Of a DNA stretch of 64,000 nt, positions 53,868 through 59,022 are shown piece after piece. The notes under the pieces were generated by a model that worked only from the letters and a program-made list of their open reading frames with translations, ran no database searches and was not told the origin of the DNA. Source of the stretch: Pseudorhodoferax soli (lineage in GTDB: Bacteria > Pseudomonadota > Gammaproteobacteria > Burkholderiales > Burkholderiaceae_C). Positions within the stretch are counted from its first letter, which is position 1. Every line of letters begins with the position of its first letter. The position numbers were made by a program, and so were the translations under genes. The stretch spans positions 1,240,001-1,304,000 of the forward strand of contig NZ_QPJK01000001.1 of assembly GCF_003337555.1 (NCBI RefSeq). Reading direction: 5' to 3'.

Positions 53868-54994
53868 GCCAGCGCGCGCGTGATCAAAATCTTCTGCACG
53901 TCGCTCGTGCCCTCGTAGATCTGGCACACGCGCACATCGCGGTAGATGCGTTCCACCGGGAAGTCGCTCACGATGCCGTAGCCGCCCAGCGTCTGGATCG
54001 CCGCGCTGCAGACGCGCTCGGCCATCTCGCTGGCGAACAGCTTGGCCATGGCGGCCTCCTTGAGGCAGGGCCGGCCGGCATCGCGCAGGCTGGCGGCATG
54101 CCAGATCAGCTGGCGCGCCGCTTCGATCTGCGTGGCGCAGTCGGCCAGCCGGAAGCCCACGGCCTGGTGCTGGAAGATCGGCTGGCCAAAGCTCTCGCGC
54201 TCCTTGGCATAGGCCAGCGCGGCTTCGAACGCGCTGCGCGCCATGCCCACGCTCTGTGCGGCGATGCCGATGCGTCCACCTTCGAGCGCGCCCAGCGCGA
54301 TCTTGTAGCCCTCGCCTTCGGCGCCGATCAGGTGGTCGGCCGGGATGCGGCAGCCCTCGAAGTTGATCTGCGCCGTGTCGCTGCTGTGCTGGCCCAGCTT
54401 GTCCTCCAGCCGCGCGACCTGGTAGCCGGGCGCGTCGGTCGGCACGATGAAGGCGCTCATGCCCTTCTTGCCGGCGCCCTTGTCGGTCACCGCGATGACG
54501 ATGGCCACATGGCCGTTCTTGCCGCTGGTGATGAACTGCTTGACGCCGTCGATCACGTAGCCGTCGCCATCCTTGCGCGCCGTGGTGCGCAGGGCCGAGG
54601 CATCGCTGCCCACATGCGGCTCGGTCAGGCAGAAGGCGCCCAGCATCTGGCCCTGCGCCAGGGGTTCGAGCCAGCGCTTCTTCTGCGCCGCGTTGCCGTA
54701 GCGCATGAGGATGGCGTTGACGGGGCAGTTGGTCACGCTGATGGCGGTGCTGGTGCCGCCGTCGCCAGCGGCAATCTCTTCCAGCACCAGCGCCAGCGTC
54801 AGGTAGTCGAGGCCGGCACCGCCGTGCTCCTCGGGCACGCAGATGCCGTAGGCGCCGAGCGCGGCCAGGCCCTGGTGGGCGGCCTTGGGAAAGAGGTGCT
54901 CGCGGTCCCATTGCGCGGCGTAGGGCCAGAGTTCGGCCTGGGCGAAATCGCGCACGGCGTCGCGGATCGCTTCCTGGTCGGGTGTCAGCAGCAT
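53864..54994 (-). CDS. Acyl-CoA dehydrogenase
   Basis: 376 residues from ATG 54994 (a start at 55036 would add 14 unrelated residues). Acyl-CoA dehydrogenase domains in order: N-terminal helices (LTPDQEAIRDAVRDFAQAEL), middle sheet (LGAFCLTEPHVGSDASALRT, ITSGKNGHVAIV), and C-terminal helices with GQPIFQHQAVGFRLAD and the late segment RVCQIYEGTSDVQKILITR, whose glutamate is the catalytic base. It uses FAD to oxidise an acyl-CoA to the 2-enoyl-CoA. Short/branched-chain substrates are likely by resemblance but not certain. It lies 48 bases downstream of the AraC-amidase gene. Confidence 0.94.
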   Translation of the reverse strand: MLLTPDQEAIRDAVRDFAQAELWPYAAQWDREHLFPKAAHQGLAALGAYGICVPEEHGGAGLDYLTLALVLEEIAAGDGGTSTAISVTNCPVNAILMRYGNAAQKKRWLEPLAQGQMLGAFCLTEPHVGSDASALRTTARKDGDGYVIDGVKQFITSGKNGHVAIVIAVTDKGAGKKGMSAFIVPTDAPGYQVARLEDKLGQHSSDTAQINFEGCRIPADHLIGAEGEGYKIALGALEGGRIGIAAQSVGMARSAFEAALAYAKERESFGQPIFQHQAVGFRLADCATQIEAARQLIWHAASLRDAGRPCLKEAAMAKLFASEMAERVCSAAIQTLGGYGIVSDFPVERIYRDVRVCQIYEGTSDVQKILITRALA

Positions 54995-55042
54995 GCGGTG
55001 TCTCCAAACGGAGGCGGCCTGGTTGGCGCCAAGCATTCGATG

Positions 55043-57424
55043 TTATCTGCCGTGCTCCGGGAACACGGTCTTGCGAATGACAGCGTGCACGCCCCAGTTG
55101 CCGTCCACCACCTGGGTCACGCCGAAGTCCACGGCCACCGAGATCAGCGAGACGGCCTCGTCCTCGTCCAGGCCATGGGCCAGCATCAGGTAGCGGCGCA
55201 CCTTGTGGAAGGCGTCGCGCATCGCGCCTTCGAGCGAGGACTTCTTGTAGATCTCGGCTTGCGCGTCCTGCCCGAGTTCGGCCAGGTGGTTGGGCAGGCT
55301 GAAGCCCTGCAGCACCCACTCGCCGGGCGTCTCCAGGAACGGGTGGTCGAGTTCGCCGAGGAAGCTGCCAGCGATGTCGGCACGCTTGTGCACGACGAGT
55401 TGGAACACGCCGGTCAGCGAGCACTCGATGGCCGTGCCGCACAGTTCGGAGTCGCCCTGCGAGGCATGCGGGTCGCCGGCCGAGAACAGCGCGCCCGGCA
55501 CCGACACCGGCAGGAACAGGCTGGCGCCCTTGCCGGCACGCCAGTTGTCCAGGTTGCCGCCGAAGTAGCCCGGCGGGATCGAGTCGACGTAGCCGCTCTC
55601 GCGCGGCGCCACGGCCAGCAGGCCGAAGTGCGGCCGCACCGGCACGCGCGCCTTGGCCAGCACGCCATAGCGCCGCGTGACCGTGGCCGGGTCCACCGGC
55701 ACGCCGGGGTAGTCGATGGTCGGGTGCAGCACGCCGAAGGGGTCGGTCTGCGGCGTCCAGCGGAAGTTGTAGACGGCCTGGGCCACGGGCTCGGGTGCGT
55801 CGGCGTCGATCTCGTAGATCGTCACGACCTCGCGCGTGCGCGGCTCGGTCAGCTGGTCGCGGTAGTGGAAGCCCCACCAGGCCGCGGCGTTGCTGCCGAA
55901 CACGCGGCCATGGTGGGCAGGCGAACAGCTGCGGCGCGGCTGGATGTCCAGGATGCGCACCTCCAGCACGTCGCCGGGCTCGGCCTCGCGCACATGGACG
56001 GGGCCGGTGCAGATGTGCACGCCGAAGCCTTCGCCGGCCCCGCGGCCGAAGACCGACGCGTCCATGGGGCCGGCGCCGCGCCGGTCCACGGCCTTGTGCG
56101 TGGGTGTCCACAGGAACACGCTCTCGGCACCCGGGTCGCCATCGACCATGCGCTCGCGGTCGTCGCTGGCATGCTGCGTCAGCGTCTCGATGGTCACGAC
56201 GTCGCCAGACTTCACATACATGACCGGCGTCAGCGCGCGGTTCAGGTAGCCCCAGTGCACGGTCTTGTCGGAGACCGGCAGGTAGTAGTGGTCGCCGACC
56301 GGCTGGGCCGTGGCCACGGGCGCGGCGCGCTTCGGGATCAGGGCCAGGGCGGTGGCGTAGCGCGCGTGGTCGCGCAGCAGGGCCTGGAACGGGCTGTGCG
56401 CGGCCGCCCCGGCCGGCGCGCCGGCGGCCTGGAAGCCACTGCCGTGGCGCGGCCGGCCGCGCTGGTCGTGCGGCGCCTGGGACTGCGCCTCGGGCTGCGC
56501 ACGGTAGGCGCGTGGCGACAGGCCGAAGCGCGCCGCGAAGGCGCGGCTGAAGTTGGCCGCATCGCCGAAGCCCCAGCGGAAGCACAGCTCGGCGATGGTG
56601 AAGTGGTCGAGCGCGCGGTTGGCCAGGTCGAGCCGGCAGCGCTCGAGCCGGCGTTCGCGCAGGTATTCGCCGAAGCTGGTGCCGCCGACCTTGAACAGCT
56701 TTTGCAGGTAGCGCGTGGACAGGCCTTCGAGGCGGCCGAGTTCCTCCAGCGAGAGTTCGGCGTCGCCGAGCCGCGCCTCCAGCGTGCGGCAGACCCGGCG
56801 CAGGTGGCCCAGCTGGACCGAGGTCGTGTCTTCCTGCGGTGCGGCGGCGGCGTGCGGCAGGCAGGTCAGCAGCACATCGGCCAGCGTGGCTTCGATCGGC
56901 AGCAGGTCGTGCGGCGCCAGCTGGTCGAGCTGCCCGGCGATGCCCTGCACCACGCCCATGCAGACCGCGCCGACGCCCTGGCCGTCGACGCGGCCCATGT
57001 CCTGCCCGCCCGTGCGCAGCAGCCGCAACAGGAAGCTGGCCGACTCCAGCCGCACCACGAGCGCGCGGAAATCGGTGTCCAGCACGATCTGCGCCGCGCG
57101 GGCCGGGTCCAGCACCAGCAGCGTGCCGGCCTTCAGCGCGTGGCGACCCGCCAGCTCTTGCGTGTGGCCGGCACCGGCCAACAGCGCGAACAGCAGCACC
57201 GGCGTGCCAGCGCCGGCCATGCCGGTGGACAGCTGCTGCGGCGAGCCCGAGAGGCTGGCGAACACCGAGCCCAGCGGCGACGCGCGCGAGGACACGTAGC
57301 CGGCCAGCGCCGGCCGCGCCGGCCGGCTGCGCAGCAGCAGGGGCGCCAGCGCCTCATCCCAGGCGGCCTGGCGCAGCGCCTCGGGAAAGGCGTCGATGGA
57401 GAAGCGGCGCAGGTCGTCGTGCAT
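55043..57424 (-). CDS. AraC-family regulator fused to acetamidase/formamidase
   Basis: 793 residues in one uninterrupted frame from ATG 57424. Residues about 1-200 look like an AraC-type sensor domain; residues about 208-308 are a complete double helix-turn-helix, with LSLEELGRLEGLSTRYLQKL and FTIAELCFRWGFGDAANFSR, then RFGLSPRAYR. A linker rich in Ala, Gly and Gln (about 310-345) leads into a full acetamidase/formamidase domain of some 430 residues: DHYYLPVSDKTVHWGY, RRGAGPMDASVFG, HICTGPV, VPVRPHFG, GGNLDNWRAGKGAS and GDPHASQGDSELCGTAIE, all keeping the residues of the paralogue at 57577. No signal peptide is present, so the enzyme half stays in the cytoplasm, joined to a DNA-binding module. 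Each half is family-typical; their union in one chain is what is unusual. A wrongly fused frame from a sequencing error is possible but no frame break is seen. Confidence 0.88.
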   Translation of the reverse strand: MHDDLRRFSIDAFPEALRQAAWDEALAPLLLRSRPARPALAGYVSSRASPLGSVFASLSGSPQQLSTGMAGAGTPVLLFALLAGAGHTQELAGRHALKAGTLLVLDPARAAQIVLDTDFRALVVRLESASFLLRLLRTGGQDMGRVDGQGVGAVCMGVVQGIAGQLDQLAPHDLLPIEATLADVLLTCLPHAAAAPQEDTTSVQLGHLRRVCRTLEARLGDAELSLEELGRLEGLSTRYLQKLFKVGGTSFGEYLRERRLERCRLDLANRALDHFTIAELCFRWGFGDAANFSRAFAARFGLSPRAYRAQPEAQSQAPHDQRGRPRHGSGFQAAGAPAGAAAHSPFQALLRDHARYATALALIPKRAAPVATAQPVGDHYYLPVSDKTVHWGYLNRALTPVMYVKSGDVVTIETLTQHASDDRERMVDGDPGAESVFLWTPTHKAVDRRGAGPMDASVFGRGAGEGFGVHICTGPVHVREAEPGDVLEVRILDIQPRRSCSPAHHGRVFGSNAAAWWGFHYRDQLTEPRTREVVTIYEIDADAPEPVAQAVYNFRWTPQTDPFGVLHPTIDYPGVPVDPATVTRRYGVLAKARVPVRPHFGLLAVAPRESGYVDSIPPGYFGGNLDNWRAGKGASLFLPVSVPGALFSAGDPHASQGDSELCGTAIECSLTGVFQLVVHKRADIAGSFLGELDHPFLETPGEWVLQGFSLPNHLAELGQDAQAEIYKKSSLEGAMRDAFHKVRRYLMLAHGLDEDEAVSLISVAVDFGVTQVVDGNWGVHAVIRKTVFPEHGR

Positions 57425-57485
57425 GGCGGGCCGAGCATACGGCGCACCTTGCCCGCCGCACGGCCAACCGGGCCACCGACGGCGC

Positions 57486-57514
57486 GGCGACAAGTTTTCG
57501 TGCGCGCTGCGACA
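57486..57514. promoter_or_regulatory. Direct-repeat operator candidate between the amidase genes
   Basis: In the 152-base divergent region the 7-mer GCGACAA occurs at 57486-57492 and 57508-57514, each followed by a base and T (GCGACAAgT and GCGACAAcT), 22 bases apart, or about two helical turns. AraC-type activators bind such direct repeats. It is the natural site for the fused regulator at 55043-57424. Binding is not shown. Confidence 0.4.
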
Positions 57515-57515
57515 A

Positions 57516-57540
57516 CTGTCCGAGCCGGGGCGCGCCGGAC
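57516..57540. promoter_or_regulatory. Inverted repeat in the divergent amidase promoter region
   Basis: TGTCCG at 57516-57521 and CGGACA at 57535-57540 form a perfect inverted repeat with a 13-base spacer, directly beside the direct repeats and 37 bases before the exported amidase ATG. It could be an operator for either gene. With arms of only six bases in G+C-rich DNA, chance is not excluded. Confidence 0.35.
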
Positions 57541-57576
57541 ACTGGTTCGCACCAACCACAAGCACAGGGAGTTCCC

Positions 57577-59022
57577 ATGCAACACATCTGCAACGCCAGC
57601 TGCACCCACAGCAAGACGCCGGCCGAGGAGGCACTCGTCAAGGAGGAGTTCCAGGTCGCGCGCCGCTCGTTCCTGCGCGATGCCATGGTCGCCGGCAGCA
57701 GCGCCGTGTCGGTCGGCGCGCTGACCAGCACGATGGCGCCGAGTGCCTTCGCGCAGAGTGCGCGCGCCGGCAACGGCATGGCCAGCCACTACTACATCCC
57801 GGCGGCGGCCAACACCGTGCTGTGGGGCTACTTCAGCAAGTCGGCCAAGCCGGTGGTGGAGGTGCAGTCGGGCGACTTCCTGACCATCGAGACGCTGACC
57901 CACCACGCCAACGACGATGCCGAGCGCATGGTCAAGGGCGACAAGGGCGCCGAGAGCGTGTTCTTCTGGGACAAGCAGCGCAAGGGCGTGGACCGGCGCG
58001 GCGCAGGCCCGATGGACGCCAAGGTTGGCGCAGGCGGCGGCCAGGGTGTGCACATCTGCACTGGCCCGGTCCGCGTGCAGGGCGCCGAGCCGGGCGACAT
58101 CCTGGAGGTGCGCATCGTCGACGTGGCGCTGCGCCCCAGCGCCAACCCAGCCTTCAAGGGCCGCGCCTTCGGCAGCAATGCGGCGGCGAACTGGGGCTTC
58201 CACTACGGCGACACGCTGACCGAGCCGAAGAAGCGCGAGGTGGTGACGATCTACGAGATGGACGCCACCGGCGAGCGCAACTGGGCACGCGCGGTCTACA
58301 ACTACCGCTGGACGCCGCAGACCGACCCCTTCGGCATCGTGCACGCCACCATCGACTACCCCGGCGTGCCGGTGAACCACGCCACCGTCAGCAAGAACGA
58401 GAAGATCCTGACCAACATCCGCGTGCCGGTGCGCCCGCACTTCGGCACCATGGGCGTGGCGCCGGCCGAGGCCGAGATGGTCACCTCGATCCCGCCCAAC
58501 CACACGGGCGGCAACATCGACAACTGGCGCATCGGCAAGGGCGCCACCGTGTACTACCCGGTGGCGGTGGACGGCGCGATGTTCTCGGTCGGCGACCCGC
58601 ATGCCTCGCAGGGCGACTCGGAACTGTGCGGCACGGCCATCGAGTGCTCGCTGACCGGCACCTTCCAGCTGATCCTGCACAAGAAGGCCGACCTGCCCGG
58701 CACGCCGCTGGCCGAACTGCGCTACCCGCTGCTGGAGACGCAGGACGAATGGCTGCTGCACGGCTTCAGCTACGCCAACTACCTGGCCGAGCTGGGCCCC
58801 AAGGCGCAGGACGACATCTACACCAAGTCGTCGGTGGACAAGGCGCTGCGCGACGCGTACCACAAGATGCGCCACTTCCTGATGACCACCCAAGGACTGG
58901 GCGAGGACGAGGCCATCTCGCTGATGTCGATCGCGGTGGACTTCGGCATCACCCAGGTGGTGGACGGCAACTGGGGCGTGCACGCCGTGGTGAAGAAGAG
59001 CATCTTCCCGGCGCGCGGCTGA
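57577..59022 (+). CDS. Acetamidase/formamidase with Tat signal
   Basis: 481 residues from ATG 57577, with AGGGAG just upstream; the frame is open before it but that stretch opposes the AraC fusion gene. The N-terminus holds a twin-arginine signal: RRSFLRDAMVAGSSAVSVGA, then PSAFAQSA as a likely cleavage site near residue 65. The catalytic part from about 65 on follows the FmdA/AmdA family: HYYIPAAANTVLWGY, RRGAGPMDAKVG, VHICTGPVRV, GGNIDNWRIGKGA and GDPHASQGDSELCGTAIE. It would hydrolyse a small amide such as formamide or acetamide to ammonia and acid in the periplasm. By eye it is closely related along its whole catalytic part to the enzyme half of the divergent AraC fusion. Confidence 0.93.
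   Translation: MQHICNASCTHSKTPAEEALVKEEFQVARRSFLRDAMVAGSSAVSVGALTSTMAPSAFAQSARAGNGMASHYYIPAAANTVLWGYFSKSAKPVVEVQSGDFLTIETLTHHANDDAERMVKGDKGAESVFFWDKQRKGVDRRGAGPMDAKVGAGGGQGVHICTGPVRVQGAEPGDILEVRIVDVALRPSANPAFKGRAFGSNAAANWGFHYGDTLTEPKKREVVTIYEMDATGERNWARAVYNYRWTPQTDPFGIVHATIDYPGVPVNHATVSKNEKILTNIRVPVRPHFGTMGVAPAEAEMVTSIPPNHTGGNIDNWRIGKGATVYYPVAVDGAMFSVGDPHASQGDSELCGTAIECSLTGTFQLILHKKADLPGTPLAELRYPLLETQDEWLLHGFSYANYLAELGPKAQDDIYTKSSVDKALRDAYHKMRHFLMTTQGLGEDEAISLMSIAVDFGITQVVDGNWGVHAVVKKSIFPARG

Follow-up and report, generated by a model that had tools for sequence, protein, structure and literature searches.

The locus analysed here raises the question of why a transcription regulator should end in what appears to be an amidase, and whether this enzyme part senses an amide, hydrolyzes it, or does neither. 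In the window (the whole stretch of 64,000 nucleotides of Pseudorhodoferax soli contig NZ_QPJK01000001.1 that was analysed), the reverse-strand gene at positions 55043 to 57424 translates into 793 codons and a stop codon with no internal stops, and the frame, Pfam and an AlphaFold model assign to it both an AraC-type regulator and an FmdA_AmdA amidase domain. An open frame of 1208 codons runs antisense to it (54098 to 57724, forward strand); high-G+C coding DNA yields such frames by itself.

The modular layout of the fusion protein was assessed from sequence profiles and from the model, which was built on an alignment of 72 fusions (mean pLDDT 80.4, pTM 0.73) and consists of a beta-rich N-terminal domain, HTH (helix-turn-helix) helices, a linker and the amidase part, with stretches of low confidence in the latter at residues 449-466, 516-529 and 658-663. 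Residues 1-190 (56855 to 57424, reverse strand, as are all parts of the gene) are assigned to an AraC_binding_2 or cupin-like domain; in the window protein the AraC_binding_2 profile reaches 20.3 bits at residues 76-175, below its cut-off of 27, and in all four relatives scanned it lies above the cut-off (28.6-55.6 bits). The AraC double HTH occupies residues 200-309 (56498 to 56827), where the model helices coincide with Pfam hits to HTH_18 (residues 233-309, 69.4 bits versus a cut-off of 33.6) and HTH_AraC (residues 273-308, 39 bits versus 26.6) and with a match to AraC regulators of the 5nla type. The amidase domain spans residues 377-792 (55049 to 56296); its best FmdA_AmdA (PF03069) stretch lies at residues 615-774 (90.6 bits versus 27), and residues 377-790 match residues 71-481 of the solved structure 3b9t_A (484 aa) with an E value of 3.9e-181. 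Foldseek searches with the model retrieved the same structure (E 4e-53, TM 0.90-0.91 on target length), as well as the AraC regulator CuxR (5nla) over its whole length (E 9e-13), with a TM of only 0.53. On the FmdA formamidase equivalog of NCBIfam (NF045496, cut-off 500) the fusion scores 48.5 bits and the product of the adjacent amidase gene (P0002) 74.2 bits, both under the cut-off.

The original prediction considered such fusions uncommon; rarity in the sense of a lone event is not supported. Scanning contigs with the peptide patterns [ED][LI]C[FY]RWGF and LTQHA[SGY]DD yielded 420 stretches with 358 relatives, of which the best 80, ranked by their match to the whole fusion, were kept. The proposed search for the same fusion in other genomes was thereby answered: in all 80 a single open frame contains both the AraC and the amidase parts, although, because of this ranking, the kept set carries no information on the frequency of unfused forms. 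These best 80 of the 358 relatives are distributed, by NCBI class, among Beta- (55), Alpha- (15) and Gammaproteobacteria (4) and Hydrogenophilia (1), with 5 unplaced, and they include 19 named genera; the closest of them in the alignment is Variovorax boronicumulans (74%). In draws of genomes made by kinship rather than by motif, with the window's own genome counted in every draw, the fusion was found in 3 of 199 near relatives and 9 of 399 family genomes (one of them, in genome G389, cut at a contig end), in 2 of 300 genomes of the order, in 1 of 369 of the class and in 8 of 398 of the phylum. The AraC-amidase fusion is a widespread family, neither an artefact nor unique. In G389, what is seemingly one fusion gene extends over two contigs, C53 (L061) and C56 (L050), which break near residue 250, through either an interruption of the gene or a break in the assembly, and entered the analyses as separate pieces.

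A quick tree of 169 amidase domains groups the fused ones in a single clade (SH-aLRT 96) with one unfused fragment, from genome G037, inside it, which indicates a single fusion event. The amidase domain probably derives from the long-form amidase family through one such fusion. The G037 fragment (contig C5; L015 and L044) is of the fused type, begins at residue 490, has no AraC part in frame and looks truncated. Genomes G1407 and G1408 (L137, L142) and G1410 (L099) apparently each have two PF03069 frames as long as a fusion (about 790-880 aa), and a second amidase frame sometimes lies no more than a few kb away; the fusions may have multiplied there.

Next to the fusion gene, and divergent from it, lies a partner gene (57577 to 59022, forward strand) that codes for an amidase of 481 aa, placed in the same family by Pfam and alignment. 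Its product is 63% identical to the amidase part of the fusion over 442 columns and bears, as read by eye, a twin-arginine-like N-terminal motif (RRSFLRD). Among the best 80 of the 358 relatives, 65 fusion loci likewise have a second amidase gene inside the fetched flanks. It is of the long form at 22 loci where it lies upstream on the same strand and at 12 where it is divergent as in the window; at 17 others a short-form gene lies upstream on the same strand, and the remaining genes are downstream (11 convergent, 3 on the same strand). The other 15 loci, some of them on short contigs, have none in the flanks, and all nine genomes with a partnerless fusion that were checked (8 of the 15 loci and G1132) contain other PF03069 genes.

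Transporter genes also recur in these neighbourhoods. By sequence clustering, 35 loci have a gene of an SBP_bac_3 cluster and 39 have one of a fused permease-ATPase cluster; two members of each cluster were checked with Pfam, and the ATPase cluster may include unrelated transporters. In NCBIfam, the binding protein and the ATPase score best with models of amino-acid-type importers, all under cut-off. A Paraburkholderia locus (L101) has the order operator-like site, binding protein, permease-ATPase, amidase and fusion.

The predicted operator is a conserved intergenic block of 31 bp (57487 to 57517, forward strand) with ACAAG half-sites 22 bp apart and a core resembling TTGTGCGC (TCGTGCGC in the window). 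The half-site block is near-constant in 11 divergent intergenic regions, which include close relatives, some with an identical site, and the remainder of these regions varies between genera. A starting matrix of seven sites, all from divergent close relatives, scores the window site, itself one of the seven, at 41.7 and the next best position in the window at 10.2; it gives 30-38 in Ancylobacter-type loci and 36 in Pseudomonas kuykendallii. With leave-one-out scoring and four rounds of growth, 62 of 78 fusion loci of at least 6 kb reach a score of at least 16, compared with 2 of 78 simulated first-order Markov controls (highest 22.0). The loci scored are also those on which the matrix was grown, close copies of an omitted site can persist in it, and scoring of the controls used the full matrix. 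The other 16 of the 78 have no site at this threshold, and none was seen near the fusion of G259 (L049) in the matrix scan. Of 51 loci outside this set, four contain fusion regions (L002, L006, L037 and L038), and they alone score above 14. A later scan gave 23.7 near an unfused amidase of G463 (L051), and scores of 14-15 occur close to the G1364 and G427 standalone regulators described below and near the C53 piece of G389. A pattern search of the window's own 8.16-Mb genome found one perfect copy, one with 2 mismatches and one with 3; a control pattern of the wrong spacing (6 N instead of 5) gave 10 matches, every one with 3 mismatches. No consensus sigma-70 promoter was found; weak promoter consensus is common at activator-dependent promoters. 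Downstream of the fusion, three Oxalobacteraceae loci, L080 (position 7777), L081 (8181) and L082 (8266), carry another operator-like site in front of a further gene; at L080 a chemotaxis receptor gene follows at some distance.

Of the gene classes tested in the 62 loci with a site, the one nearest downstream is the binding-protein gene at 28 loci, an amidase gene at 20 and the fusion gene at 5 (L135, L136, L137, L139 and L142); the other 9 loci have none of these. The proposal of a substrate-sensing switch beside a gene for the same reaction gains from these 53 of 62 loci, as it does from the second amidase near 65 of 80 fusions. We consider it about 60% probable that the fusion is a dedicated local activator of an amide uptake and hydrolysis operon in which an enzyme domain would have been reused as amide sensor. 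The fusion protein would act as a transcription activator of the AraC/XylS type, bound to the predicted operator through its HTHs, with the C-terminal amidase domain as the sensor. An amide or a close analogue in the amidase pocket would reposition the HTHs through the flexible linker, and expression of the partner amidase, joined in many relatives by that of an amino-acid-type ABC importer, would thereby be switched on. The partner enzyme would then clear the inducer and so reset the switch. Against this explanation stand the loci without a site at the threshold and the strong site beside the unfused amidase of G463.

The amidase domain of the fusion was claimed to retain every motif of its paralogue. 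This is correct for GDPHxxQGDxE and TGP, which are retained in the fusions, and incorrect at two other positions: the His of the THHA motif in the paralogue is replaced by Gln417 (codon at 56174 to 56176, reverse strand), and Gly604 by Ala. Position 417 is Gln in 88 of 89 fusions (the exception, L130, has His) versus His in all 79 unfused relatives that have the position. The use of LTQHA as a scan pattern biases the raw count towards Gln; among fusions outside this selection Gln occurs in 28 of 29, made up of partly overlapping subsets (13 of 14 loci found by RWGF only, 9 of 9 fusions from the genome search and 6 of 6 in a further set); the contigs of G1132 and L139, for instance, are equally long. 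In that further set, 12 unfused frames have His at 417, and an additional locus, L188, has no match to the motif. In 13 PF03069 members of other subfamilies the position holds W, G, A or His, and never Gln; His417 therefore marks this branch and is no universal catalytic residue, so that its loss need not imply lost catalysis. Ala replaces Gly604 in 75 of 89 fusions. The unfused long form (at least 95%) and the short form (at least 90%) have 79 conserved positions in common, and five of these (417, 604, 631, 647 and 697) are kept in under half of the fusions. From the Gln417 signature, a mainly binding role is judged likelier than turnover, and the fused domain is probably more a binder of the amide than a hydrolase.

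The fused amidase domain is under strong purifying selection. The family motifs are invariant among the aligned fusions, and in ten close pairs the dN/dS of the domain is 0.03-0.18, lower than that of the AraC part in 8. In 91 pairs from 14 loci, mean identity is 0.60 in the AraC part, 0.79 in the fused amidase domain and 0.88 in the partner, and the partner has a lower dN/dS than the fused domain in 5 of the 8 pairs with a partner. This stronger constraint on the partner was counted against the sensor explanation.

Retained motifs and low dN/dS are also what speaks for the alternative that survives best, a bifunctional trigger enzyme whose fused domain would be both sensor and working enzyme, its own turnover resetting the switch. 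It is further supported by the five Ancylobacter-type loci named above, in which the site precedes the fusion gene and the flanks contain no other amidase. The near-universal replacement of His417 by Gln argues against it, as do the other PF03069 genes of the nine checked genomes with a partnerless fusion, which leave the fusion no longer the sole candidate enzyme there, and we regard this alternative as rather unlikely.

A different division of labor, in which the amidase domain serves as no more than a scaffold for dimers, or as a passenger, and the N-terminal cupin-like domain reads the signal as in other AraC regulators, is suggested by two standalone regulators. In genome G1364 a regulator that belongs to the subfamily of the fusion, and lacks the amidase domain, directly follows a short amidase gene, and G427 has a similar regulator and short amidase about 1 kb apart. 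Both speak against a simple view of the amidase as the sensor: placed beside amidases, they imply that regulation does not always require the amidase domain. The N-terminal domain alone may sense something, and it is included in the AraC part of all 80 kept fusions. In the best trees the two standalone regulators nest within the fused rows, which suggests loss of the amidase domain, and none of 200 bootstrap trees has the fused rows all on one side; a clade of all fused rows is nevertheless compatible with the data (p-AU 0.159), and the two may be either pre-fusion ancestors or later losses. A mere scaffold or passenger is hard to reconcile with an amidase half that is more constrained than the AraC half in both identity and, in most close pairs, dN/dS, and whose family motifs are invariant; we consider this explanation improbable. 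Finally, a frame artefact, in which a sequencing error joined two genes, has a negligible probability and is refuted by the one-frame fusions in all 80 kept relatives and in further genomes, where neither a frameshift at the junction nor a consistent separation of the two genes was seen.

The linker (residues 310-376; 56297 to 56497) is delimited by the model and by the ends of unfused AraC proteins. Residues 312-342 are of low confidence in the model, and a helix follows at 345-361. Within it the motif R-G-x-P (R322-G-R-P325 in the window; 56450 to 56461) was recognized by its invariance: R322, G323 and P325 are invariant in the 72 aligned fusions, and RGxP is present in the linkers of all 89 fusions. 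Eleven unfused AraC relatives stop about 2-20 residues past the HTH and have no RGxP. Interpretation of RGRP as an AT-hook was rejected, as R fills the third position in 44 of 89 fusions and the others have L, W, A, V, F, Q or K there, and the motif is thus not a strict AT-hook. The linker-helix segment FxALLxDHxRYAxALxLxPKR is well conserved in one part of the fusion family and absent from another; a decayed Tat signal (LLRD ahead of the amidase start) was likewise discarded, since FxALLxDHxRYA is kept only in one part of the family. Tentatively, and with somewhat less than even odds, the amidase, recruited a single time, would have become, with Gln417, mainly a binding receptor for the amide that the His417 partner destroys, and RGxP would relay its state to the HTHs.

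The regulator half resembles the one-component regulators of the AraC/XylS type in its HTH_18, in its predicted tandem direct-repeat site and, with a profile score below the cut-off in this protein, in its putative AraC_binding_2-like domain. Its nearest NCBIfam model is FeaR (NF007243; residues 93-310, 90.8 bits, below the cut-off of 199). The eleven unfused AraC relatives end soon past the HTH, whereas the fusion carries an enzyme domain there. This domain is akin to the free-standing long-form acetamidase/formamidase-like protein of Methylobacillus flagellatus (3b9t; 61% identity, with folds that match along almost all of the chain), from which, as from the partners, the fusions differ in Gln417 and mostly in Ala604.

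MocR/GabR regulators often adjoin genes of related pathways. In excerpts from three papers (PMC6917764, PMC5734734, PMC4944035) they are described as transcription factors in which a linker leads to a large C-terminal domain of enzyme fold. The fusion is like them in layout only: a GntR winged HTH and an aminotransferase-like domain make up the regulators of those excerpts, whereas the fusion has an AraC HTH, an FmdA_AmdA fold without PLP and an additional N-terminal AraC-type domain ahead of the HTH. Neither a GntR winged HTH nor an aminotransferase domain is among the four Pfam families that it matches. An AraC-amidase fusion does not appear in the titles and opening parts of abstracts retrieved from the open-licence literature, and the word "amidase" has 0 occurrences in the text of the survey PMC7446807. 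Regulators with enzyme-derived domains are already known, as MocR/GabR exemplify.

If our interpretation is true, the fusion would extend to AraC regulators the idea known from MocR, in which an enzyme fold serves as sensor for the operon of its own reaction, and the free enzyme encoded next door serves as a control. Together, the Gln/His difference at position 417, the linker motif and the predicted operator would allow the conversion of an enzyme into a sensor to be tested directly. The shared predicted operator would moreover mark, in many proteobacteria, a putative amide uptake and hydrolysis operon composed of a binding protein, a fused permease-ATPase, an amidase and their regulator.
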